Position numbers and translations under genes: made by a program | Shown: positions 15,615-51,573 of the stretch, one piece after another | Numbering within the stretch: position 1 is the first letter of the stretch | How the letters are laid out: every line of letters starts with the position of its first letter | Origin: a virus | Length of the DNA: 51,842 bases | IMG/VR virus record: IMGVR_UViG_3300028800_002455 | Location: 1 to 51,842 of that record | Reading direction: 5' to 3' (one strand) | The notes under the pieces: generated by a model | Databases searched by the model: none | What the model was told of the DNA's origin: nothing | Seen by the model: only the letters and a program-made list of their open reading frames with translations

Positions 15615-15755
15615 ATGAAGAAACCAAGGAAGCAACGCGTGGACGCCGCCACAAAAGCCCTTGAGCAAAGCAGGCATGGCGACGCCCTCCGGATTCTCCT
15701 GGCAGCATCTGAAGATGCCTTTGCGGCCCAGCCGCACAAGAGCGAGGTCGCGTAA
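15615..15755 (+). CDS. Small phage protein (46 aa)
   Basis: Reads MKKPRKQRVDAATKALEQSR then HGDALRILLAASEDAFAAQP; basic start and amphipathic helix. It begins 3 nt after the GP88-type gene and ends in TAATG with the replication gene. Function unknown. Confidence 0.65.
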   Translation: MKKPRKQRVDAATKALEQSRHGDALRILLAASEDAFAAQPHKSEVA

Positions 15756-16567
15756 TGAGTGGACGCCCTTGGTACAAGCGAGATGGCGCGGCCTTTATCC
15801 GGGGCACGATGGGGCTCACCCTGGAGGAAAAGGGAGCCTACTCGCTTTGCCTGGATCTGATTTATTCGGCCGGCGGCCCGATACCTGATGATGCCCGGTG
15901 GCTGGCCGGGGTGTGCAACGTGTCGCTCCGGAAGTGGTCGACCATACGCGAGAGCCTTATCCGGGTTGGTAAGCTTTTTGCCGAGGGTGGGCGCCTGATG
16001 AACGAGCGCGCCGTCTCCGAAATCAAATCACTCGAAGTTGGACAAGATTTCGCGGGAGAAACTGCCGGGAAAAGTGGTCAAAACCGCGTCGAAAACTCAG
16101 TTAAATCTCACGAAACATCGGTGAACCGCTCGGATAATCTTGCCGAGGTTGAGGCTCCGTCTAGTAAAATCATAGAGTTAGAAGAGGTGAATCTCTCCCG
16201 TATAAGAGAGAGAGTAGAAGAAGATAAAGATAAGAGTAGAAAAGAAAAAGAAGGTAGCGCCGCGCCTTCGGCGCTCGCGCCAGCCGTCATCTCCCTCCCG
16301 ACCAATAAATTCAATGCCAAAGGCGAGGAAGTGCCGATTACGCAGGCGCAGGTCGACGACTATTCCGCAACATACCCGGCCGTCGACGTGATGCAGCAGC
16401 TCCGGGAAATGCGGCGCTGGCTCCTCGACAATTCGGACCAGCGCAAGACGGCGGGTGGGATGGCCCGGTTCGTCAATCGCTGGCTCGGCCGCGAGCAGGA
16501 CAAGGCTGGGCGGCTGCCGGCAAACGCAAATCTCTTTCCCACAGCCAAGATCCACAAGGTAGTCTGA
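15755..16567 (+). CDS. DUF1376 (YdaU-like) replication protein (270 aa)
   Basis: Residues 3-100 match DUF1376: PWYKRDGAAFIRGTMGLTLE, GAYSLCLDLIYSAGGPIPDD and WLAGVCNVSLRKW, a winged-helix domain found in phage replication proteins. A low-complexity charged linker (about 105-180) follows, encoded by an AT- and purine-rich run, then a C-terminal domain (VDVMQQLREMRRWLLDNSDQ). Likely binds the phage origin and recruits the helicase machinery; family knowledge, not shown here. Confidence 0.82.
   Translation: MSGRPWYKRDGAAFIRGTMGLTLEEKGAYSLCLDLIYSAGGPIPDDARWLAGVCNVSLRKWSTIRESLIRVGKLFAEGGRLMNERAVSEIKSLEVGQDFAGETAGKSGQNRVENSVKSHETSVNRSDNLAEVEAPSSKIIELEEVNLSRIRERVEEDKDKSRKEKEGSAAPSALAPAVISLPTNKFNAKGEEVPITQAQVDDYSATYPAVDVMQQLREMRRWLLDNSDQRKTAGGMARFVNRWLGREQDKAGRLPANANLFPTAKIHKVV
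16160..16255. other. Candidate replication origin inside the YdaU-like gene
   Basis: A markedly AT/purine-rich block in an otherwise GC-rich region, with CTCTC-8 nt-GAGAG symmetry at 16193-16210 and runs such as AGAAAAGAAAAAGAAGG near 16238-16254. In lambda the origin lies within the initiator gene O in a similar setting. Proposed by analogy only. Confidence 0.35.
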
Positions 16568-17199: not shown

Positions 17200-17241
17200 A
17201 CGTCTCCGCAATATGAACAGGACGAAAGAGCAAGCACAGCC

Positions 17242-17985
17242 ATGGAAAAACATCCGTATCTTGATCGCGCGACATATGCACTCCGCAAGGAGGCACATAA
17301 ATCGCAAATCACGCTGAATGAAGAAATTGGTCGCAATCTCGCCCTGGCTGTTCTCACCGCACTTCCGGACCGCAGTTGGTTTGTGCTCGCCATCGAGCGC
17401 GAGAGGGAAACTTGTCAGCGACTGGTGGATATGGGCGCTCTAATCTATCGGCCAAAAATATTCTGTCACCCCGACGATGATGACTACGAATCATATGGCT
17501 TGGTCGGCTATCGCCTTGACGGCTATGTGCTCGTTGGCATTGAACCTACAGACGATGTTTTTGCGGCAATAAAAGCCACAAAGGGAGTGAGGGGCTTTGT
17601 TCTTGGGGCCCATGGCGGCGATGTCATGCCGAAACCGCTCCCTCCTGGCACCGTGGAATGGTTCAGGAGGCTGGAGGAAATCGATTGCGCCAGGGCGACA
17701 GAAAAGAAGCCCGATCCTCGGGACGATCTATATGAAGGGGTTAGTGTTCTTGTCGATGACAAAGATCACCGCGTTTACGGACAAACAGGGACATTGAGAT
17801 TCCTTGGTCCGACAGTAAGCAAGGTGCTGGTTGGCGCGATCGTCTGGGAAGCTGAGACTGCCTGCCTCAAGAAAATCGTGCCACCCAAAAAGGTCAAAAA
17901 GAAAAAAGCTGTCACACCAGAGCCGGATTCACTCGAAACATTGATGAAACGGGTCGAGCAGCATCGGCAAAAGAGGGCGGCGTGA
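17242..17985 (+). CDS. NusG-like protein, candidate late antiterminator (247 aa)
   Basis: Residues about 45-125 read as an NGN domain: RSWFVLAIERERETCQRLVD, MGALIYRPKIFC, DGYVLVGIEPTDDVFAAIKA and VRGFVLG. After a linker, EGVSVLVDDKDHRVYGQTGT resembles a KOW motif, and a Lys-rich tail ends the protein. NusG-family proteins bind RNA polymerase and modulate pausing and termination. Located between replication and packaging genes, it holds the place of lambda Q. Ribosome site weak (AAGAG about 14 nt upstream). Confidence 0.75.
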   Translation: MEKHPYLDRATYALRKEAHKSQITLNEEIGRNLALAVLTALPDRSWFVLAIERERETCQRLVDMGALIYRPKIFCHPDDDDYESYGLVGYRLDGYVLVGIEPTDDVFAAIKATKGVRGFVLGAHGGDVMPKPLPPGTVEWFRRLEEIDCARATEKKPDPRDDLYEGVSVLVDDKDHRVYGQTGTLRFLGPTVSKVLVGAIVWEAETACLKKIVPPKKVKKKKAVTPEPDSLETLMKRVEQHRQKRAA

Positions 17986-19586: not shown

Positions 19587-20174
19587 CTACTCGCCGTCGC
19601 TGTCATTTTTTGTGCTCGATACTTCGGGCCAAAGCCCATCCCGGTTGCCGCAACCATCACCGTTGGAACTGGCGGACCATTTCGCGGGATCACATGCTGC
19701 GCGGAAGGTACCTGCTGGAACGCCCGCAAAAACGGCATGTGCTTTCTCGCTGACAAGCGGCAGTTCAACTCCCAAGGAAGCGGAAGCCTGTTTGCTGGCG
19801 GCATCGGCAGCAGCGCGAGCGGCATCGGCGCTAATTCGCGCTGTTTCATCGGCCCGTCGCAGGAACCAAAGCTGAAAAGCAGAAACGACCGCCAAGACGG
19901 CGGTAAACCAAGCCAGAACCTTGGTGTAGTCTGCCACCGCCCAGGCAGCGGCATCGGCATTGCTTATGGGTGGGGCGTTCTGTGCGGCCTTATACTGTGC
20001 TGCCTCATAGTTGCTAATGCCGGTAAGAGCGGGCAGCAAAACGAACGCAAGGAAGACGAAAGCCGCTAGGTCGCCCTGTAGCCGATCTAGTTCGCGCCTG
20101 AGATCAACCATGCGCCCGGCAACCTCGGAACGCTTCTGCTTAAGACCGCCTATCAGGATGATGTTTTCGCTCAT
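19587..20174 (-). CDS. Leftward two-span membrane protein (195 aa)
   Basis: N-terminal MSENIILIGGLKQKRSEVAG then RELDRLQGDL, a short coiled segment, precedes two membrane spans (AAFVFLAFVLLPALTGI and KVLAWFTAVLAVVSAFQLWF) and a helical ARISADAARAAADAASKQAS. The first 35 residues resemble a small mobile-element-associated family; the rest resembles membrane proteins of lysogenic-conversion genes. The last 40 residues look less regular and may be a decayed end. It opposes the surrounding genes, so expression in the lysogen is likely. Confidence 0.7.
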   Translation of the reverse strand: MSENIILIGGLKQKRSEVAGRMVDLRRELDRLQGDLAAFVFLAFVLLPALTGISNYEAAQYKAAQNAPPISNADAAAWAVADYTKVLAWFTAVLAVVSAFQLWFLRRADETARISADAARAAADAASKQASASLGVELPLVSEKAHAVFAGVPAGTFRAACDPAKWSASSNGDGCGNRDGLWPEVSSTKNDSDGE

Positions 20175-20311: not shown

Positions 20312-20569
20312 GTGATCCTGACGGGGCAAAAGCTGGAAGAATTCGGACGGGCCATCTGGGGAGAATTCTGGATAGCCCGTATGGCTGAGCGGCTTGGTCT
20401 GTCACGCCGCACCATCATGCGAAAACGGTCCTGCGAAATGGGGCTTTCTATCTCATGGCAGCTAGAACTGCTCGACATGGCGGACCAGCAAATTAAGATT
20501 CAGGAAGAAAGGCTTAGAGTGCTAGGCCATATCCGAAACCAATTGGCGGAGACGTTTGATGATGGCTAA
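20312..20569 (+). CDS. Small HTH protein (85 aa, GTG start)
   Basis: Contains EFWIARMAERLGLSRRTIMR, a helix-turn-helix, followed by a helical dimerisation-like tail (QQIKIQEERLRVLGHIRNQL). Probably a small regulator or a terminase-type DNA-binding protein. The 137 bp upstream (20175-20311) separate it from the leftward membrane protein and presumably hold divergent promoters. Confidence 0.65.
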   Translation: MILTGQKLEEFGRAIWGEFWIARMAERLGLSRRTIMRKRSCEMGLSISWQLELLDMADQQIKIQEERLRVLGHIRNQLAETFDDG

Positions 20570-20807
20570 TGGACAAAACTTGAAAGCGCCAGCAAAAGAT
20601 GCGCGTGTGGCCACGGCTATTCGGTTTCGCCAAGCGCGCGATGCCGCGTCTCCACTAACCGCCAGTGAGATCGCAACGCTTGAGAGAGATTGGACACAGG
20701 ATGGGGTTCATCATCACATGGGCGCGACCAATACCGTTCATCGGCTGTTGGCGACCATCGCCGCGCGATCTGTCACAGGGGTAGGACAGCACAACGGTGT
20801 TCCCTGA
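20559..20807 (+). CDS. Uncharacterised phage protein (82 aa)
   Basis: MMANGQNLKAPAKDARVATA, then SPLTASEIATLERDWTQDGV and HRLLATIAARS. Helical; no family recognised. GGAG lies 7 nt before the ATG at 20559, which overlaps the previous stop. Confidence 0.6.
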   Translation: MMANGQNLKAPAKDARVATAIRFRQARDAASPLTASEIATLERDWTQDGVHHHMGATNTVHRLLATIAARSVTGVGQHNGVP

Positions 20808-20957
20808 ATTTTGTTCCTTGACGAGATTCCGATAAAGGTTCATTCCTATTGCGCTTTCGCTGATTTGGGGCTCGGCAGCTTGCGCCACCCAAAAGCTGCG
20901 CATTGGTGAAGGCCTCCCAGACTTTCGAAAATATCCGGATACACTTTCGGGCTCGCA
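20808..20957 (+). promoter_or_regulatory. 150-bp intergenic region before the packaging genes
   Basis: No frame worth calling. A TTGACG at 20818-20823 could be a -35 box, but no good -10 lies 16-18 bp downstream. The position suits a late promoter or an antiterminator loading site. Confidence 0.25.
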
Positions 20958-21721: not shown

Positions 21722-22105
21722 TTGGCAGGTCGCGGCAATCCCAATCCCACCGGTAGCAAGCCCGATAAGTTAATGCGGGATGCATTGATGGTCGCCCTCA
21801 AAAGGGAAGCCAAGGACGCGGACGGCCAGCCCACCACGAAGCTTGCGCAGATCGCCGACAAGCTGGTCGATCTGGCCGCCGGCGGCGATGTCCAGGCCAT
21901 CAAGGAAGTCGCCGATCGCGTGGACGGGCGCCCAGCCCAAGCCCTCACCAATCCGGCCGGCGGTGATCTATTTGAGAATTTTGCCGCGCTTCTCCCCACC
22001 ATGACGGATGAGCAGCTTGAACTCCTTGACCGCGCTCAAAGACTTCTCGCCGGAATTACTGGCGAAGCTCCCGGTCCAGCAGGAGATCCTCAGACGACGC
22101 ACTGA
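21722..22105 (+). CDS. Terminase small subunit-like protein (127 aa, TTG start)
   Basis: Starts from TTG as AGRGNPNPTGSKPDKLMRDA with AGGA upstream. The basic GNPNPTG start and helical core (TKLAQIADKLVDLAAGGDVQ AIKE) resemble DUF5681-type small subunits, which recognise packaging DNA. Position directly before the large subunit supports this. Overlaps it by 98 nt. Confidence 0.7.
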   Translation: MAGRGNPNPTGSKPDKLMRDALMVALKREAKDADGQPTTKLAQIADKLVDLAAGGDVQAIKEVADRVDGRPAQALTNPAGGDLFENFAALLPTMTDEQLELLDRAQRLLAGITGEAPGPAGDPQTTH

Positions 22106-23525
22106 GGCCAGCAAGGAGCGCGTTCCTGATGGCCAGGCAGGACCGCAACAGCAATTCCTTCAATCTGACGCGGATATCGCCATTTACGGGGGCGCAGCCG
22201 GCGGTGGAAAGTCCTTCGCCCTTCTGCTCGATCCGCTGCGGCACATCAGCAATCCGGGTTTTGGCGGCGTCATCTTCCGCCGCACTACCGTCCAGGTCCG
22301 CAATGAGGGCGGCCTATGGGACGAGAGCAAAAAGCTCTATCCGCTGGTCCAGGCGAATCCAAAACAGCACGCGCTGTGGTGGGATTTTCCGACCGGCGCG
22401 TCCCTTTCCTTCGGGCACCTGGAACACGAAACCACCGTTAACGATTGGCAGGGCGCGCAGATCGCATTCATCGGCTTCGATGAGCTGACGCATTTCACCG
22501 AAAAGCAGTTCTGGTACATGGTATCCCGCAATCGCTCGATGTGCGGGGTCAAGCCCTATATCCGGGCGACCTGTAACCCTGATGCAGATAGCTGGGTCGC
22601 CAAGCTGATCGCCTGGTGGATCGACCAGGACACGGGGTTCGCCATTCCAGAGCGCAGCGGCGTTCTCCGCTATTTCGTGCGCATCAACGACCAACTGATC
22701 TGGGGCGACAGCACTGAGGAATTGCTGGCGCAATATCCTGGAATTCCGCCGAAATCCGTCACATTCATCTGCGCCAAACTCAGTGACAATGCCGCGCTGA
22801 TGAAAGCCGATCCCGGCTATTACGCCAATCTATTGGCTCTTCCGTCTGTCGAGCGCGAGCGATTGCTGGCGGGCAACTGGAAAATCAGGGCTGCGGCCGG
22901 CCTATTCTTCAGCCGCGCGTGGTTCCCGCGCTTCAGCCCATCTCAAATACCCGCCAATCTCTCGAGATACGGCACCAGCGACTATGCGGTGACGCAAGGC
23001 GGTGGAGACTTCACGGTCCTGCGAATCTGGGGTCTCGATCCTGATGGCGATCTTTGGCTGCTGGATGGCTGGCGCGGACAATCCACCGCAGATGTCTGGA
23101 TCGAGCGCCAGATTGATCTGATTGCCGCCCACAAGCCGCTGTGCTGGTTCGGAGAAGCAGGCGTTATCGCCAAGACCATCGAGCCTGCACTCTTTCGGCG
23201 CCTGCGTGAACGCAAGGTCGCCTGTCGCTTGGAATGGCTGCCGTCGATCACCGACAAGCCCACGCGCGCTCGCGGTTTTCAAGCCCGCGCCGCGATGAAG
23301 AAGGTTCACTTGCCGGAAAGCGTTGAGGGCGACCTGGTCCTTGATGAATACGAGCAGTTTCCGGTCGGGAAATTCGATGACGAAGTGGATGCCGGCTCCC
23401 TGATCGGCCGCGCACTGGATGAGGTTCATCCGGCTCTCGTCAAGGTCAAGACCAACAACCCCAATCCGCCAGACCTCGGCATGTTCAAGAAGCAGCCGAC
23501 GGGCGCGAGCTGGAAGACGCTATAG
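22008..23525 (+). CDS. terL: Terminase large subunit (505 aa)
   Basis: ATPase-nuclease motor of DNA packaging. Walker A GGAAGGGKS at residues 61-69; Walker B IAFIGFDELTHF with Asp157/Glu158; coupling segment RATCNPD near residue 187. The C-terminal RNase-H-like nuclease has SDYAVTQGGGDFTVL with a catalytic Asp, WFGEAG, and FDDEVDAGSLIGRA supplying the last acidic residues. Length and motif order are those of an intact TerL. The start at 22008 lies well inside the small-subunit gene in another frame. Confidence 0.95.
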   Translation: MSSLNSLTALKDFSPELLAKLPVQQEILRRRTEASKERVPDGQAGPQQQFLQSDADIAIYGGAAGGGKSFALLLDPLRHISNPGFGGVIFRRTTVQVRNEGGLWDESKKLYPLVQANPKQHALWWDFPTGASLSFGHLEHETTVNDWQGAQIAFIGFDELTHFTEKQFWYMVSRNRSMCGVKPYIRATCNPDADSWVAKLIAWWIDQDTGFAIPERSGVLRYFVRINDQLIWGDSTEELLAQYPGIPPKSVTFICAKLSDNAALMKADPGYYANLLALPSVERERLLAGNWKIRAAAGLFFSRAWFPRFSPSQIPANLSRYGTSDYAVTQGGGDFTVLRIWGLDPDGDLWLLDGWRGQSTADVWIERQIDLIAAHKPLCWFGEAGVIAKTIEPALFRRLRERKVACRLEWLPSITDKPTRARGFQARAAMKKVHLPESVEGDLVLDEYEQFPVGKFDDEVDAGSLIGRALDEVHPALVKVKTNNPNPPDLGMFKKQPTGASWKTL

Positions 23526-24186: not shown

Positions 24187-24389
24187 AGCGATATGAAAGC
24201 CGGCCAAGATCGGCCTTGGTTCAGGGCGAGGATGCCTATCTTTATGACAGCGGACCATCCAATCCTCCCTCAGTGACGGTGCTAGAGGCTGAACGTATTG
24301 AGCGGCGCACCGGGTTGTTTGGTCAGCATGGCGACCCAATTGTCATGATCGAAGAAACCGCGCCCATTGGGTTCGGGCGTTGCCGTTAA
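24183..24389 (+). CDS. Small virion-region protein (68 aa)
   Basis: MKRYESRPRSALVQGEDAYL, then VTVLEAERIERRTGLFGQHG. Short beta-rich protein of unknown role, 13 nt before the portal start. Confidence 0.7.
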   Translation: MKRYESRPRSALVQGEDAYLYDSGPSNPPSVTVLEAERIERRTGLFGQHGDPIVMIEETAPIGFGRCR

Positions 24390-24402
24390 CGGGAAACTCG
24401 AC

Positions 24403-26568
24403 ATGTCCGAACCCGGCGTCCCCGATCTTTCAGCGCTGACACCGGCTGGCCCGCAGGCTGGGATTTACACGCCCAATGCGCCGGCGCCGGCGAATGATGC
24501 TGAAAAGCCGGTGGTTGACATCGTGCGTCTCAAAAAGATGTTCGATGATGCCCGGACCGGAAACGAGATCAGCCGCAAAGATTCAGAAATCAGCCGCGAC
24601 TATTACGACGGATACCAGTTCACGCCCGGAGAGAGGGCTAAGCTGGACGAGCGTGGCCAGCCCATCGTCGAGAACAACCGCATCCGAGGAGCTGTCAACG
24701 GCATCCTCGGTGTGATGGAGATGGGCAAGACCGACCCGCGGGCCTACATGCGCAACCCGCAGGATGGACCACAGCAGCAGCGTCCCGCGCCGCGGCCGGT
24801 CCCGCAGCAACCAGGTCAGCCGCCGCAGATGGGGACGCCACAGCCCGGTCAACAGGTCATGGGCGGCAATGACGGTCCGCCGATGGACCCCGCGCCGCTC
24901 GATCCGGCCGATGTCGCGACCATGACATTGCGCTTCATCTCCGACACCACCCATTTCCAAGCCACCAAGATGGACGTGCTGGAAAATGGCCTTGTGGAGG
25001 GCACGGGCGCGGCCATATTCGAGGTATCGGGCCAGGATGTCATGGCCACCCAAATCCGCTGGGAAGAGTTCTTTTACGATCCGCGCTCTCGCCGCCACGA
25101 CTTCAAGGACGCCCGGTATATGGGCGTCGCGAAGTGGATGTACGCGGACATGCTGGCCGCCATCTATCCCGAGATGGGCGACAAACTGAACGGCTTCATC
25201 ACCACCGGTTCGATCGACGGCTTCGGCTTCGATATGACCTGGGAAGACCGGCCAAACACCAATGTCACGCTGCCCTGGTTCGACAGGGCCCAGAAGCGCC
25301 TGATGGTGGTGGAGATGTACCACATCGAGGCGCAGACCTGGATGCGGGATGTGTTCTTTGCCGGCGGACCGCTTGAATCCGGGCCGTCACCCTATCTGGA
25401 CGACGACAAGCGCCCGACCAATCCTATCGAGGCCTATTCGTCGTACGTGGACCGGCAGAACAATCGGGTTGGCGTGGTTCGCGATATGCGGCCGCTTCAG
25501 GACGAGGTGAACAAGCGCCGGTCCAAGGCCCTCCACGAGATCAGCACGCGGCAGATTCAGAAGACCGATCCCAATGCCCCTCCTGTCGATGCCGACGAAG
25601 TTCGCAAGGAAGCTGCCAGACCGGATGGTGTCGTTCCCGAGGGTTGGGCGATTGTTCAGCGCTCCGACGTCGTCGCGAACAACATGCAGCTCTTGGCCGA
25701 AGCCAAGGCCGAGATCGAGCGATTTTCGCCCAATCCGGCGATCCTTGGGCGTCAGGGCGCCGATGCTTCCGGCCGCGCCGTTCAGGTCCGGCAACAGGCG
25801 GGTATGACCGAATTGGCCCGCGTCTTGGGCCGATTCAATGACTGGGAATTCCGCTGCTATCGCCAAATGTGGAGCAGGGCTCGGCAGTTCTGGAAAGACC
25901 CGCAATGGATCCGGGTGACCGACGATCTGGGCGCGCCGCAATATGTCCGCGTTAATGATCCGGTGCATGCGGTTGATCCCCAGACCGGCCAGCCAGCCAT
26001 CGATCCCCAAACGCAGCAGCCCATCGTTTCGCATGTCAAAAACGATATCGCGAAAATGGACATCGACATCATCATCGACAGCGTTCCCGACACGGCCACG
26101 CTCGAACAGGAGATCTTCGACGAACTGGCCAAGCTGGCCCAGACCTATGGACCGCAGAACGTGCCGTTCAGCCTGGTCATCGAAATGTCGTCGCTGCCCA
26201 AGAAGCGCGAGCTGATCCAGAAGCTGGAAGCCTTTATGGCGCAGCAGCAGCAGGCCCAGGCCGCCGCCGCCCAGCAGAAAATCCAGATGGAGACCGCCGG
26301 CAAGCAGGCCGAGATCGCCAGCGACACGGCCACGGCGCGGAACAAGAACGCCCAGGCCCTCCTGTACGAAGTCCAGGCCGTTGCCCAAGCGCTCGCCGCC
26401 CACGTCAAGGCGATGGAAGCTGCCGCAGCAGAGCAGGCGTTAGGACTTCCCGCTATCGGCGTACCTGATGGACAGCCACAGGCCGCTCCCGCGTCACTCG
26501 CGCCGCAGCAGCCTCAAATCCCCATCCAGCCGCAGCCGGGCGGCGCTCCCTCACAGGCAGCGCCATAG
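24403..26568 (+). CDS. P22-type portal protein (721 aa)
   Basis: Dodecameric head vertex protein through which DNA is packaged and ejected. RKDSEISRDYYDGYQFTPGE and ENNRIRGAVNGILGVMEMGK are typical of the P22-like portal family, as are the length and a long C-terminal helical region (MAQQQQAQAAAAQQKIQMET and on) ending in a Pro/Gln tail, comparable to the P22 barrel helix. An unusual Pro/Gln-rich insertion at about residues 120-165 interrupts the wing. Start at 24403 is preferred over an upstream GTG/ATG by GGGAA spacing. Confidence 0.92.
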   Translation: MSEPGVPDLSALTPAGPQAGIYTPNAPAPANDAEKPVVDIVRLKKMFDDARTGNEISRKDSEISRDYYDGYQFTPGERAKLDERGQPIVENNRIRGAVNGILGVMEMGKTDPRAYMRNPQDGPQQQRPAPRPVPQQPGQPPQMGTPQPGQQVMGGNDGPPMDPAPLDPADVATMTLRFISDTTHFQATKMDVLENGLVEGTGAAIFEVSGQDVMATQIRWEEFFYDPRSRRHDFKDARYMGVAKWMYADMLAAIYPEMGDKLNGFITTGSIDGFGFDMTWEDRPNTNVTLPWFDRAQKRLMVVEMYHIEAQTWMRDVFFAGGPLESGPSPYLDDDKRPTNPIEAYSSYVDRQNNRVGVVRDMRPLQDEVNKRRSKALHEISTRQIQKTDPNAPPVDADEVRKEAARPDGVVPEGWAIVQRSDVVANNMQLLAEAKAEIERFSPNPAILGRQGADASGRAVQVRQQAGMTELARVLGRFNDWEFRCYRQMWSRARQFWKDPQWIRVTDDLGAPQYVRVNDPVHAVDPQTGQPAIDPQTQQPIVSHVKNDIAKMDIDIIIDSVPDTATLEQEIFDELAKLAQTYGPQNVPFSLVIEMSSLPKKRELIQKLEAFMAQQQQAQAAAAQQKIQMETAGKQAEIASDTATARNKNAQALLYEVQAVAQALAAHVKAMEAAAAEQALGLPAIGVPDGQPQAAPASLAPQQPQIPIQPQPGGAPSQAAP

Positions 26569-28166: not shown

Positions 28167-29303
28167 ATGGAAGTTCAACTTGCTTCGTCTTCCGAACGCC
28201 AAGTTTGGGTGACGAAATTCCTGTCGGAATATGTCCGTGAATCCGGCTTCATGCCGTACATGGGCAAGTCCGACACCAGCATCTTCCAGTTCCGCACGGA
28301 ACTGCTGAACGAAGCTGGCAAGACCATCAACGTGCCTGTCATCGCCAGCCTGAAGGGCGGTGGTGTCACCGGCTCCCAAGTCCTGGACGGTAACGAGGAA
28401 GACTTGCAGAACTTCAACGACCAGATCGTCGTTGATTGGCTCCGCAACGGCGTCCGCGTTCCCAAGTCCACGCAGTATCTCACCGAGATCAACCTCATGG
28501 ACGCTGCCAAGTCGGCTTTGCGCACCTGGGACGCGGAGAAGCTGCGCGATGGCATCATTCAGGCCCTCGGCTCCATCATCATCGCCGGCGCCAATGCCGG
28601 CGCGGCTGATAGCTGGGTGTCCTATACGGCGGCCACGGCCGGTCAGCGCAATTCGTACTTGACGCTGAATGGCGACCGCATCTTGTTCGGCGCCAATATC
28701 AGCAACGCGTCGTCCAATGTGTGGGCAACCGCGCTGGGCAATGTCGATTCGACCAATGACATCATGTCCACCGCAATCGGCTCGCTCGCCAAGCGCATGG
28801 CCAAGAATACCGGTCCCTACAACACATCCTTCCCGACGAACCTGCGCATTCGTCCGTTCAAGACCGACGACGGCAAGGAATATTTCGTGATGTTCTGCGC
28901 CCCGAATTCCTTCCGCGATCTCAAGAAGGATACGGTGCTCCAGCAGGCCAATCGCGAAGCCCGTGCCCGTGAAGGCAACGCTATGGAGAAGAACCCGCTG
29001 TTCCAGGATGGCGATGTCATCTATGACGGCGTGATCTATCGCGAAATCCCGGAACTGAACCAGCTGACGATCGCTGGCGCCGGGGCTGCCGGCATCAATG
29101 TGGACCAGAACTTCCTGTGTGGCACCCAGGCCGTCGGCATCGGTTGGGGCCAGCAGCCCAAGCCGGTGACCGATTACATCAAGGACTACGGTTTCCGTCC
29201 TGGTGTCGGCATCGAGGAACTGCGCGGGCAGAAGAAGCTGAGCTACACCGGCGTGCAGTATGGTGTTGTTAGCGTGCTGACCTCTTCCACGCCTGACACG
29301 TAA
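28167..29303 (+). CDS. Major capsid protein, DUF4043 (N4 gp56-like) family (378 aa)
   Basis: Probable HK97-fold coat protein. WVTKFLSEYVRESGFMPYMG, NVPVIASLKGGGVTGSQVLD, GNEEDLQNFNDQIVVDWLRN and KSALRTWDAEKLRDGIIQAL follow the N4-gp56/DUF4043 pattern; the C-terminal VGIGWGQQPKPVTDYIKDYG fits too. AGGAGG lies upstream of the ATG, in keeping with high expression. Confidence 0.92.
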   Translation: MEVQLASSSERQVWVTKFLSEYVRESGFMPYMGKSDTSIFQFRTELLNEAGKTINVPVIASLKGGGVTGSQVLDGNEEDLQNFNDQIVVDWLRNGVRVPKSTQYLTEINLMDAAKSALRTWDAEKLRDGIIQALGSIIIAGANAGAADSWVSYTAATAGQRNSYLTLNGDRILFGANISNASSNVWATALGNVDSTNDIMSTAIGSLAKRMAKNTGPYNTSFPTNLRIRPFKTDDGKEYFVMFCAPNSFRDLKKDTVLQQANREARAREGNAMEKNPLFQDGDVIYDGVIYREIPELNQLTIAGAGAAGINVDQNFLCGTQAVGIGWGQQPKPVTDYIKDYGFRPGVGIEELRGQKKLSYTGVQYGVVSVLTSSTPDT

Positions 29304-29859: not shown

Positions 29860-29882
29860 GCCCGGCGGTTCCGGGCTTTTTT
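29860..29882 (+). terminator. Intrinsic terminator inside the virion operon
   Basis: GCCCGG-CGGTT-CCGGGC followed by TTTTTT: a 6-bp GC stem, 5-nt loop and T-run, 13 nt after the decoration gene. Confidence 0.88.
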
Positions 29883-42253: not shown

Positions 42254-43716
42254 TGAAGCGCTTCATATCACTCATAGTCGCCGGTATTTTCATCTTGGCG
42301 ACACTGCCAGTTGTCGCCCCGGCTCCCGCACGGGCATGGACACATGGCACATCCGCCAGCTGCCCATATGCTACAGACAATGGTTGTGCCGCCGCAAATC
42401 CGAACGGCTCTTTCCAAAATGCTGGGCTTCTAACATCGGCAACGCAAAGCGGACAGAATAGTCTGCTGTACCTGCACCCGATGACTTTCAATATTCCGGC
42501 GGTCGATTATCCGATTGGCCCGGATAAGACGCTCACGCCGCAAGACCCCCGAAACATCACGACGGGAAATAGCGGAGGGGCTTGTGCCTGGGATGGAACA
42601 GAAGTTGGATGTTCAGGCAGCGGTGTTCTCACCGGCGTTCTGAACAACTACGATTTCTGCGGCAGCAAGATCGGCAAAGCAGCGGTCTCTGTCTATGCCG
42701 GTGGCACTCCTTCCGCTGGGAGCAGCCTAACGATCACCAACAGCTATTTTTGTCTCCAGGCGAGTGGAGGGGGGCAACTCTCTTGGGGAGGCGGCGGCGG
42801 AAATAATTGGAGTTTCGTTTACAAGAATAACCAATGCGACGGCACCTCCGCGACATCTTCCTCGGATTATTGCCTAAGAGATGATGTCGATGCCGTCGGA
42901 ACGTCGGTAGATGTCGAGTATAGCGCGTTCACAAATCAAAATGTTCCGCGCGTTTCCACAGGTCTGACCAACGCGACATGGAAGTTCCGGTATAACTTCG
43001 TACAAGGGCTTAACGATATCTCTACCGCCATTCACGGCGAGATCATGCTGCGCAATTGCACGGGCGCACGAGCAAATTGTACCTCCACAGAGGACGACAC
43101 CGGCAATTTCATTGTCTGGAACAGGATTGCAGTTCACTCACAGAACAATGCCACCTTCTTTCCAAGCGACGGCGCGAGCGATGGGCTAACACTCGGCTTT
43201 GTAAATTTCGTCAATAACGTGGTCGTTACCAACCTGGCGGCCGATGGTATCGCTAGCGTCGGCAATGGCCTTTTCGGCCAGCGGGCCTCGACACTCGGAA
43301 ACGTCACCATCACCGGGAACTGGCTTGACGCCAGTGGATCAGGTGACTGCGGCATCAGCGGCGCGGTCAGCGGCGGCAACACAGTTGGAGCGCAACAGAC
43401 CGGAACGGTGCTCAACGTCACAAGTTTAAGCGGCAGCTTTGGAAACAATCCTATCGAGCCTGGCTGGCAGGCATTTCATTCGGCCTATACCACATCGTCC
43501 ATTACGTCCTTCGGGACCGCGAGTGGCAACACTGGCACTTACAACATGAGCGGTAGCTCGCAATCCGCAGGTCCGGATAGCAATTGGACGCTTGTCCCTG
43601 GATTTACCAGTCAGACCCTGACTGGCAACATGTTGCTCAACGATCCAAGCCACACGGGCTCTCCGACTGCAATCGGATATACCGGCCCTCAGATGGCAGC
43701 GACGAACTGCTTCTGA
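42253..43716 (+). CDS. Exported beta-helix-like protein 3 (487 aa)
   Basis: MKRFISLIVAGIFILATLPV VAPAPARA is a Sec signal peptide. Repeated short strands (SLTITNSYFCLQAS, NWSFVYKNNQCDG, VDVEYSAFTNQNV, KFRYNFVQG, NVTITGNWLDASGSGDCGI) indicate a right-handed parallel beta-helix as in pectate lyases and tailspikes, with cysteine pairs. It could bind or cut a surface polysaccharide. An ATG at 42250 is one codon earlier. The last 28 nt overlap the opposing acyltransferase gene. Confidence 0.75.
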   Translation: MKRFISLIVAGIFILATLPVVAPAPARAWTHGTSASCPYATDNGCAAANPNGSFQNAGLLTSATQSGQNSLLYLHPMTFNIPAVDYPIGPDKTLTPQDPRNITTGNSGGACAWDGTEVGCSGSGVLTGVLNNYDFCGSKIGKAAVSVYAGGTPSAGSSLTITNSYFCLQASGGGQLSWGGGGGNNWSFVYKNNQCDGTSATSSSDYCLRDDVDAVGTSVDVEYSAFTNQNVPRVSTGLTNATWKFRYNFVQGLNDISTAIHGEIMLRNCTGARANCTSTEDDTGNFIVWNRIAVHSQNNATFFPSDGASDGLTLGFVNFVNNVVVTNLAADGIASVGNGLFGQRASTLGNVTITGNWLDASGSGDCGISGAVSGGNTVGAQQTGTVLNVTSLSGSFGNNPIEPGWQAFHSAYTTSSITSFGTASGNTGTYNMSGSSQSAGPDSNWTLVPGFTSQTLTGNMLLNDPSHTGSPTAIGYTGPQMAATNCF

Positions 43717-44792
43717 AGCCAACGCCGCGTGGGTAGGTCGTAATATCTGTCGAGCAAAATCACAGCGCCAAACAGCGATGCGATGAACGCGATCTCCAAG
43801 GTCATTGGAGCATCTATCCGCTTTGTGAAGTGTGAGAACAGATCGATCCACGAACCTTGTAGAATATAGATCCCGTAGGACGCGATACCTAGTGCTGAAA
43901 GGGCAGGGGATGCGGCACTTGAAGCGGCCGAAGACGCCCCGATCCAGACGATCAGCGGAAACACGAAAATAGTCGCCGCCAGATCAAACGCCGGTTGATA
44001 GACAGCGCCGGGGTGAGCGCCCAGCACGGTCAGCAGCATGGCGCACGGAATCAGCGGCGACAGGTGCAGATGGGCCGGCGTCGCTTTCCATATTCGATGC
44101 AGAAGCACGCCACAGAAAAATGAATAGCCAACCCTGATGAACCCGGCGACGAGAGTGTGCCACTGATAGCCATTATCCATGACGCCCGTGCCGGATGCAG
44201 AGCCGAAGCCAGCGGTTCTAGTCAATACAGTGCCGGTCAAGACCAGAGCCATGACGGCAACAAATATCGCCAGATTGCGGTTGCTGATGCGTCGCCAAGC
44301 GATTGCCCACCAGGCGTTAGCAGCCAACTCAAAAGACAGTGACCATGCCGTTAAATTGAGCGGAAGAAATCCCGACGGAGTTGGAAGAAATAGGACTGAG
44401 AAAAGCAAAACCGACCAGCTGATTTCGTGCCCGCGATGCCCTGAAACCAGTTGGCCATATCCCCACACCGCCAGCGCGAGCATGATCGTAAGGCCATAAA
44501 GCGGGTACAGCCTGATCAGGCGCATAGTCATGAAGCGCCGCGTGGAAAGGCCGGATGCAAGCCTTTGGGCATAGGCGTGTGAAAGCACGAACCCGCTCAG
44601 GACAAAGAAAAAGTCCACGGCGAGATAGCTCTCGAAGAGCGGATTGTGGAAATACCGCAGATGCCGCGTGACGACGGCGATGGCCGCTATTCCACGCAAA
44701 CCATCGAGCACGACAAAGGACCGATCTTTGGCCTTCTCTTCTAGTAGAGATAGGGCTGGCGTGTCGTCCGCTATGGCTGCGGCTTGCGTCAT
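43689..44792 (-). CDS. Acyltransferase family 3 (OafA-like) membrane protein (367 aa)
   Basis: VLDGLRGIAAIAVVTRHLRY and VDFFFVLSGFVLSHAYAQRL at the N-terminus are the signature of acyltransferase-3 proteins, with about ten membrane spans in total and the conserved RHL-type motif and YPLYGL/TAWSLSFE segments. Such phage genes acetylate O-antigen or capsule and so change the host surface against further phage adsorption. Leftward among rightward genes, so likely expressed in the lysogen with the small gene before it. Confidence 0.9.
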   Translation of the reverse strand: MTQAAAIADDTPALSLLEEKAKDRSFVVLDGLRGIAAIAVVTRHLRYFHNPLFESYLAVDFFFVLSGFVLSHAYAQRLASGLSTRRFMTMRLIRLYPLYGLTIMLALAVWGYGQLVSGHRGHEISWSVLLFSVLFLPTPSGFLPLNLTAWSLSFELAANAWWAIAWRRISNRNLAIFVAVMALVLTGTVLTRTAGFGSASGTGVMDNGYQWHTLVAGFIRVGYSFFCGVLLHRIWKATPAHLHLSPLIPCAMLLTVLGAHPGAVYQPAFDLAATIFVFPLIVWIGASSAASSAASPALSALGIASYGIYILQGSWIDLFSHFTKRIDAPMTLEIAFIASLFGAVILLDRYYDLPTRRWLQKQFVAAI

Positions 44793-48860: not shown

Positions 48861-49039
48861 CGATTTCGGCGTAGACTCGCTTCGTCTGATTTGCACGACA
48901 TGATGGAGGCAATCATGTGAACCCGCACCCCAAAGTCCTGCCCACATGGCAGGCAATGAAGGAATCGACTTTGGTCAGTTAGTTTCCTTCTACGGTTACC
49001 CCTGAACATTCACTCAGGACGTACCCGATGAATAAGGCA

Positions 49040-49073
49040 AGCCCTGGTGCCGAAAGGTGCCGGGGCTTTTTTG
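49040..49073 (+). terminator. Strong intrinsic terminator ending the late operon
   Basis: AGCCCTGGTGCC-GAAA-GGTGCCGGGGCT followed by TTTTTTG: a 12-bp stem including G-U pairs, a GAAA tetraloop and a T-run. 49,040 is 180 nt after the last late gene. Confidence 0.92.
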
Positions 49074-50096: not shown

Positions 50097-51329
50097 TCAT
50101 TTGGAGGCCGAAAGTGTCTCACTGGGAAGCACCTGATCTGAATGAGGATCCAAGTGAGACACCGGTATGGGCCCGAGCATGTGCATAGCGCCGGCCGCCA
50201 GGCGCTTCTGCTCAGCCGCCCGGGTGTAGACCAGGGCCTGTGTGATCGACCGCCAGCCGAATATGGCCATGAGCTGGTGAGCCGTGGCGCCGCGCTCCGC
50301 CGCGATCGTGGCCGCAGCCTTCCGCAGCCCATGGGCGCTGCAGTGGCCCAATCCTGCCAGCCGGCACCACCTCTTGAACTGGGTTCCAAAGCCCTTGGCG
50401 GTAAACGGCTTGCCGAAGAACGTTTCGAGGTAGGTGGTGTGTCGGACGGATGCTTCCGGCCGGGGCTTTGTCGGCGTGGCGTCAATCACTTCCTGAAGGG
50501 CCGGCAGGATCGGGATCCATGTGGTGACGGGGGTGCGGTCTCGGCCCTTGAACTGCGTGAACTGCCAGCCTGGAACGCCCTGGACTGCCTTCTTATGCTG
50601 CCGGCCGATCACCACGGCATCCGACCGCCTGGTGCCGGTGAACATGAGCATGGCAAGGGCAAGCTTCTGTACGCTTCCCAGGGGCCATCTGGCCTCATAT
50701 TGGGCGACTTCCTCCACCGTCCAAGTGTGATAGCCAGCGGATTTTGAGACCCGGTACGGCACTTCCTTGGCCGGGTTGGCGGTCATCATGTCTTGCCCGA
50801 TGGCGAACTTGATGGCCTCCCGGTAGGCCTTCAGACGGGCGTTGAAGGTGGCCGGCGTCGGGCAGCGACCGCAAATGACGGCGATCGCCTTGGGTCTGAG
50901 GGTGGAATAGGGCCGGTGCCCGATCGGGGCCTTGTCGGTATCCGAGATCGGTTCGGCGCAAATCTGGTCCATCACCACCCGGCGCCGGGCTTTGGTGGTC
51001 TGGCCCAGTGCCCTGAAGCTTTCGGCCCGGGCTTCATATTCGTTGAATAGCCATGCCAGGGAGCCCTTGGGCGCGCCGCGGCGGGTGGGAGCGCCCGACG
51101 GGGCCGAAGAGGGCGTTTGCGGGGCCGGCCCCGCGTAGGCAGCCTGGAATTCCGCCAAAAATTCGGCCGTTCCCGGCGGCGCGCGGAGCCGGATTTTCTT
51201 CTGGCCCTTGCGCCGGAAATAGTAGCGGGGTTTCCCGTGTCGATCGGGGTCATAGACCAGGTATTTGCTGACCGTCAGGCCCAACCCCGCAATATCGACC
51301 TTGGCCAACGCATCCTCAGCGCACATCAT
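50097..51329 (-). CDS. int: Tyrosine recombinase (phage integrase 2, 410 aa)
   Basis: Integrase of the second element. Catalytic residues visible: Arg234 in MFTGTRRSD, His333 and Arg336 in HGLRK, Trp359 in GWRS (the His/Trp position) and Tyr368 in LVYTRA. N-terminal arm- and core-binding regions precede it. Start at 51329 (MMCAEDALAKVDIAGLGLTV) overlaps the upstream HTH gene by 14 nt; the frame is open to 51476 but that part runs antisense to the HTH gene reading. Only distantly like integrase 1, so the two may use different sites. Confidence 0.93.
   Translation of the reverse strand: MMCAEDALAKVDIAGLGLTVSKYLVYDPDRHGKPRYYFRRKGQKKIRLRAPPGTAEFLAEFQAAYAGPAPQTPSSAPSGAPTRRGAPKGSLAWLFNEYEARAESFRALGQTTKARRRVVMDQICAEPISDTDKAPIGHRPYSTLRPKAIAVICGRCPTPATFNARLKAYREAIKFAIGQDMMTANPAKEVPYRVSKSAGYHTWTVEEVAQYEARWPLGSVQKLALAMLMFTGTRRSDAVVIGRQHKKAVQGVPGWQFTQFKGRDRTPVTTWIPILPALQEVIDATPTKPRPEASVRHTTYLETFFGKPFTAKGFGTQFKRWCRLAGLGHCSAHGLRKAAATIAAERGATAHQLMAIFGWRSITQALVYTRAAEQKRLAAGAMHMLGPIPVSHLDPHSDQVLPSETLSASK
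50114..50162. repeat. 10-bp inverted repeat in the integrase 2 3' end
   Basis: GTGTCTCACT (50114-50123) and AGTGAGACAC (50153-50162), 29-nt spacer, perfect match. Related half-copies lie at 49958-49968 and 50008-50015. Candidate recombinase arm sites. Confidence 0.6.
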
Positions 51330-51573
51330 CCCAGCCCTTATCTGACCCGGGATTCGCCGTTTCCTTCCATTCGCGGACGAGGTTGCGCACATCTTCGGCG
51401 TCCCATCGCAGCAGCCTGGGATGACCCGGAACCGCAAAGGGCTTAGGAATTCTTCCCTCGGCCACCAGTTGGTCAAGCATCGTCTCGCTGATCATCAGCG
51501 CGCGCGCGACGGCCGGCGCATTTAGCGCGAAAACAGGATCGGAAAACTGATCCGCCCGGCTGAGCTTGCTCAT
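51316..51573 (-). CDS. HTH excisionase-like protein (85 aa)
   Basis: NAPAVARALMISETMLDQLV then AEGRIPKPFAVPGHPRLLRW DAEDVRNLV is a MerR/AlpA-type winged helix as in excisionases. It lies directly before integrase 2, the usual place for Xis. Start at 51573 from an ATGA overlap with the cysteine-rich gene upstream. Confidence 0.8.
   Translation of the reverse strand: MSKLSRADQFSDPVFALNAPAVARALMISETMLDQLVAEGRIPKPFAVPGHPRLLRWDAEDVRNLVREWKETANPGSDKGWDDVR

Follow-up and report, generated by a model that had tools for sequence, protein, structure and literature searches.

A NusG paralogue encoded in the position of a late antiterminator in a P22-like temperate phage

RfaH of Enterobacteria is a specialised paralogue of NusG that serves long foreign operons, with ops as its short noncoding element. 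Two further specialised NusG paralogues, LoaP of Bacillota and UpxY of Bacteroidota, are antiterminators of long operons; LoaP loads through an RNA hairpin. How such paralogues choose their targets has been answered in detail for only a few of them, RfaH above all. The known antiterminators of phages, N, Q and the put RNA of HK022, work with or around the NusG of the host. Here, a NusG-like gene of a virus is compared with these systems.

The window, meaning the whole stretch of DNA that was analysed, is a complete linear IMG/VR virus record of 51,842 nucleotides (IMGVR_UViG_3300028800_002455), and the host of the virus is probably an alphaproteobacterium. Since it carries two integrases, a RecE-like exonuclease, Erf, a NinB/Orf-type gene, a P22-type coat, Hc3 and ejection proteins, besides terminase and portal, the window was assigned to a P22-like temperate phage. 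The features on which the argument rests are as follows.

15755-16567, + strand: DUF1376/primosomal-type replication gene, upstream of nusG (Pfam, PHROG)
17201-17250, + strand: leader and start of the nusG-like gene, shared with the closest relative, L101 (84% over 50 bp)
17242-17985, + strand: nusG-like gene, ATG start, 247 aa, predicted as NGN, linker, SH3-like/KOW-type barrel and charged C-terminal tail
20312-20569, + strand: small HTH gene (HTH_8/Fis-type; Pfam, PHROG), adjoining the late element on its 5' side; a similar small ORF has the same place in L101
20804-20878, + strand: late-operon element conserved in L101, candidate late promoter and/or loading site
22008-23525, + strand: terminase large subunit, near the start of the virion genes
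24367-26568, + strand: portal protein
28167-29303, + strand: P22-type major coat protein (PF13252)
29860-29882, + strand: intrinsic terminator inside the virion operon, candidate site of action (GCCCGG-CGGTT-CCGGGC-TTTTTT)

One ORF without assignment separates the DUF1376 gene from the nusG-like gene, which closes the clearly assigned part of the rightward early block; small genes come after it, the virion genes start near 21.2 kb, and the distance to terminase is 4 kb. The initial annotation had placed the gene between replication and packaging genes, and this holds, with DUF1376 upstream and terminase, portal and coat downstream. In L101 (portal 91% identical; early region and terminase differ), a replication-type ORF likewise lies directly 5' of nusG. 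The terminator that had been reported inside the virion operon is real as sequence and is conserved in L101, its T-tract included. Elsewhere in the window, tyrosine integrases were seen at both ends of the record (4-1083 and 50100-51476, both on the - strand), one of which may belong to a neighbouring element. An O-acetyltransferase related to O-antigen acetylases (43692-44792, - strand) is possible serotype-converting cargo, the gene at 14736-15608 matches GP88 and is weakly GcrA-like in its N-terminal region, and a strong 13-bp terminator hairpin (49039-49068, -24 kcal/mol) lies near the right end.

The ORF at 17242-17985 was matched by Pfam NusG (PF02357; E 1e-5, 26.4 bits against a cut-off of 22.2) over residues 45-139 and by PHROG 6386, 'transcription antiterminator' (E 2.9e-4), and its best PDB sequence match is NusG (E 2.3e-5). 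No homology to the Q protein family was found for this protein, the Pfam, PHROG and TIGR00922 searches giving only NusG-type matches. Because it reached only 15.5 bits with TIGR00922, the equivalog of housekeeping NusG, against a cut-off of 135.7, the protein is regarded as a paralogue and not as the housekeeping factor. The AlphaFold model, for which the alignment was built from 17 phage relatives, has an NGN fold over residues 44-150 or so, with pLDDT of about 81-93 for most of them, and is not confident beyond; an N-terminal extension of about 43 residues precedes the fold. Foldseek matches of the NGN model were NusG and RfaH, including RfaH on ops-paused polymerase, and the top ones were among RfaH-ops complexes. 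For the C-terminal part, no sequence-profile match to KOW was obtained. When residues 154-215 were modelled separately with the closest relative, a five-stranded SH3-like (KOW-type) barrel was predicted (pLDDT 81), spanning residues 165-213 approximately. Structure matches of this barrel were weak (best E 0.03 for any match) and included the KOW domains of NusG and Spt5 among other SH3-like folds; a profile comparison of the window and L101 C-terminal domains with other KOW segments was not significant. An NGN-type domain and a KOW-like segment had both been claimed, with structure prediction as the check on their arrangement. The former is established by the Pfam score and the confident model, while the latter is supported by the modelled barrel alone and has no backing from sequence profiles.

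A profile of the 17 phage NusG-like members found RfaH as its best match (E 1.4e-20), covering the NGN and KOW positions, and NusG more weakly (E 1.1e-17 to 6e-16). This closer match to RfaH belongs to the family profile and was not shown for the window protein alone, whose own PDB match is NusG. Having RfaH as nearest match of the family may be read as consistent with loss of the housekeeping role. No close homologues of the window protein were detected in phages, plasmids, IMG/VR or genome contigs by tblastn and back-translated patterns. Even the window and L101 proteins are only 29% identical, though both accompany the same late element, and judged from these sequences the pair would be evolving fast.

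Over the 8-kb early/late region, the window and L101 share only three blocks of DNA: the leader and start of nusG (17201-17250), the block 20804-20878, and the first late gene from 21233. The second block lies upstream of 20958, where the initial annotation proposed to look for a conserved loading element, and is a candidate late promoter and/or loading site. It contains TTGACG (20818-20823), then a 17-nt spacer that is diverged in sequence and equal in length between the two phages, and then 38 bp identical to L101 (20841-20878). By its sequence, this looks like a promoter followed by an initial transcribed region that has been conserved. The 38-bp identity alone is not exceptional, and a recombination joint is possible, since runs of at least 38 identical bases are also present in the conserved late coding region of the two phages. 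An exact 20-mer search of IMG/VR recovered the window element only in L101, and no hairpin in it, as DNA or as RNA, was more stable than in shuffled sequences. In L101 the same element is followed, just before the first late gene, by a strong intrinsic terminator, a hairpin of -25.7 kcal/mol with TTTTATTT; unlike L101, the window has no strong terminator of its own in the leader. A leftward ORF (19587-20174, - strand), assigned by sequence reading to a putative membrane protein, lies between nusG and the late operon; it opposes read-through from the early block, which favours a separate late promoter.

Relatives were collected by terminase or portal only, without reference to NusG. By Pfam alone, NusG was found in 1/50 and 5/50 records of the terminase and portal collections, respectively, and a profile built from phage NusG proteins detected more NusG-like ORFs. 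All confident ones have the orientation of the late genes and precede terminase by less than about 5 kb, the distances being roughly 0.3-4 kb. Besides the window, 8 lineages have the gene in this slot (L022, L039, L076, L078, L101, L127, L143 and L159), for which the rough joint chance is 8e-7, an estimate in which the terminase starts of some lineages were placed by hand. The iterated HMM could drift; Pfam independently passes 6/10 of the members tested. The L101 protein falls below the Pfam threshold (E 0.0028), only weak KOW matches were obtained for L127, L134 and L078, and a pooled alignment of four sequences was too diverged for a pattern scan. The same slot is occupied in Bradyrhizobium phage ppBjS10J-1, carried by Bradyrhizobium japonicum S10J, by a gene annotated as 'hypothetical' (OP596615.1, 29025-29657). 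In Microcystis phage yong2, where terminase opens the record, a NusG-like gene ends the early block as the last gene before terminase. A recognisable NusG exists in only 11/54 relatives with at least 5 kb of upstream sequence, so that most relatives manage otherwise; such a patchy distribution is as alternative regulators would show. In relatives without NusG there were only weak matches, 1/9 of them in the slot (E of about 5), and these were disregarded. In L082 (418-1144) a GNAT-like gene was noted directly before the phage nusG; it overlaps a small ORF on its upstream side, an arrangement similar to that of toxin-antitoxin pairs.

In the intervals between nusG and terminase, the + strand has 0.37 terminators per kb and the opposite strand 0.06; outside these intervals the density is 0.09, and the + strand excess over this background is about 4 times. 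Leader terminators are present in L101, L084 (12837-12876), L090, L127/L134 and several element-bearing contigs. The L127/L134 hairpin has a 10-bp GC stem and a long loop and lies about 115 nt past nusG; in L107 a promoter-like island is found about 125 nt past the gene. A 104-bp C-rich noncoding leader before the late genes is identical in L107 (2009-2112) and L106 (3852-3955), possibly as a Rho-related or loading signal.

In six relatives of the Bradyrhizobium phage type, alignment of the DNA 3' of nusG revealed diverged flanks around a near-invariant 25-bp element, TTTCACCCGCCGGGYGGCTTGTGTCC, preceded by the boxes CAAATCRG and CGGCCGGT. Searching IMG/VR with this element alone returned 23 stretches. 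In 19 of the 20 viral contigs that extend far enough upstream, a nusG-like ORF with the orientation of the element stops 48-316 nt short of it; 4 of the nusG-bearing contigs had served to derive the element, and the count for the new ones is 15/16. In the exception, L176, the element (1464-1483) has portal-like sequence upstream instead of nusG, and may belong to a degraded prophage or be a second target site. The 250 nt that follow each element, 6.25 kb in all, contain 10 terminators (a stem of at least 8 pairs plus a T-tract), while 0.9 would be expected at the density seen elsewhere in these contigs, an excess of about 10 times. Eight of the ten start 26-57 nt past the element, and their stem sequences differ. 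Such an order of element and terminator is what would be expected of a putative loading site before a terminator. The element core has a single variable position, occupied by C (15), T (6) or A (3) in the 24 copies. With T in only 6/24, the copies do not preserve the simplest hairpin, whether of RNA or DNA, and recognition of DNA sequence, as by RfaH, is slightly preferred over an RNA hairpin, as with LoaP. This preference carries little weight, because everywhere except at the variable position only exact matches were accepted in the search. In the other NusG lineages, including the window element, the best matches to the Bradyrhizobium-type element were no better than background, which indicates that the elements are lineage-specific.

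These findings suggest that the gene probably encodes a phage RfaH-like NusG paralogue, serving as the late processive antiterminator of a P22-like temperate phage, a function that is inferred. The NusG-like protein would come from the end of the rightward early block, and with its NGN domain it would displace host NusG from RNA polymerase that either initiated at the element near 20.8 kb or travels across it; the modified polymerase would then read the virion operon of about 23 kb through intrinsic terminators such as that at 29860, and probably through Rho. Computation gave the NGN fold, the modelled KOW-type barrel and the conservation of position, noncoding element and terminator, and it showed nusG, element and terminator to be linked in relatives; that the protein is recruited at the element, displaces host NusG and causes read-through is inferred only, without functional data. 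The initial annotation's placement of the protein 'in the position of a late antiterminator' is strengthened by a family assignment independent of that first reading, by recurrence of the slot across several phage lineages and by the coupling of element and terminator in the related group. On a broader scale, the balance tips slightly towards several lineages of temperate phages having captured a NusG paralogue in place of a Q- or N-type antiterminator, with loading on a phage element just behind the gene. The result would be a self-contained nusG-element-terminator cassette with lineage-specific targets, a compact natural switch for antitermination of the NusG type. Against the late-antiterminator reading stand the lack of a strong leader terminator in the window, the presence of a recognisable NusG in only 11/54 relatives, a window element that is common to one contig only, is unlike the Bradyrhizobium-type one and has an identical run that is not exceptional by itself, and the 29% identity of the L101 protein.

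The most serious alternative, although an unlikely one, is that the HTH protein (20312-20569) is the late switch, acting on the promoter-like element, while the NusG-like protein adds processivity or shields phage transcripts from Rho throughout infection. The HTH gene is directly upstream of the conserved element in the window, with a similar ORF at the same place in L101, and the window element does resemble a promoter. In the compact relatives L127 and L107, however, nothing lies between nusG and the leader signals, and in the Bradyrhizobium type it is nusG that is consistently linked to the element. Control of late initiation by the HTH protein and antitermination by the NusG-like protein are compatible roles, and the HTH gene may be the primary late switch.

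The early block also contains the gene, and NGN domains bind RNA polymerase generally, so an early N-like factor, or a takeover factor displacing host NusG globally with no specific late target, can be conceived. This is improbable, as the gene stands at the end and not the start of the early block, keeps the same slot in several lineages, and is tied in one group to a specific downstream DNA element and terminator. Still less credible is a moron, in which a NusG/RfaH-like gene captured from a host would be carried as a passenger without regulating anything in the phage: the patchy distribution (11/54) and the strong divergence of NusG would fit it, but the constant slot and strand, the conserved leader and the linkage to element and terminator would not. 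Position and linkage thus make both of these readings less likely than late antitermination by the NusG paralogue.

In a literature search of partial coverage, no paper turned up that treats NusG paralogues of phages as regulators of late genes. PHROG 6386, the Microcystis phage yong2 protein and gp582 of Bacillus phage G are phage NusG-like proteins already annotated as antiterminators, for which no published role was found. The description of such regulators as little described can therefore be kept, although annotated copies exist (yong2, Bacillus phage G). What is new is specialised antitermination of the NusG type in the late-switch role of a phage, with its own elements, as an inferred function. 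If true, the universal elongation factor itself has been turned into a viral regulator, a phage-supplied NusG paralogue being the late switch, and new protein-element pairs become available for asking how NusG paralogues choose targets. The Bradyrhizobium phage version is directly testable, since it is compact and resides in a named, sequenced phage.

Among the known systems, RfaH with ops is closest, being the best profile match over NGN and KOW and among the top Foldseek matches, and the short conserved noncoding element of the Bradyrhizobium type parallels ops. In contrast to RfaH, the window gene is phage-encoded, lies next to its own proposed target and encodes the N-terminal extension, and the phage elements have no demonstrated homology to ops. 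LoaP and UpxY resemble the proposed role as specialised NusG paralogues on long operons; the LoaP hairpin differs from the Bradyrhizobium-type element, which does not maintain the simplest one. The plasmid-encoded PrfaH (PDB 9ik0), matched by fold and profile, is a NusG paralogue of a mobile element; unlike the proposed phage protein, it is plasmid-borne and is not a lytic switch. No adjoining late operon was seen for gp582 of phage G in the stretch viewed. In position the nusG-like gene agrees with lambda Q, since it closes the rightward early block ahead of terminase, and the relatives, like the lambda pR'-tR' cassette, have an element and leader terminator between this gene and the late genes. 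It differs from Q in protein family (NGN/KOW), with no evidence of contact to sigma or promoter, and the window differs from lambda in having no terminator like tR'.
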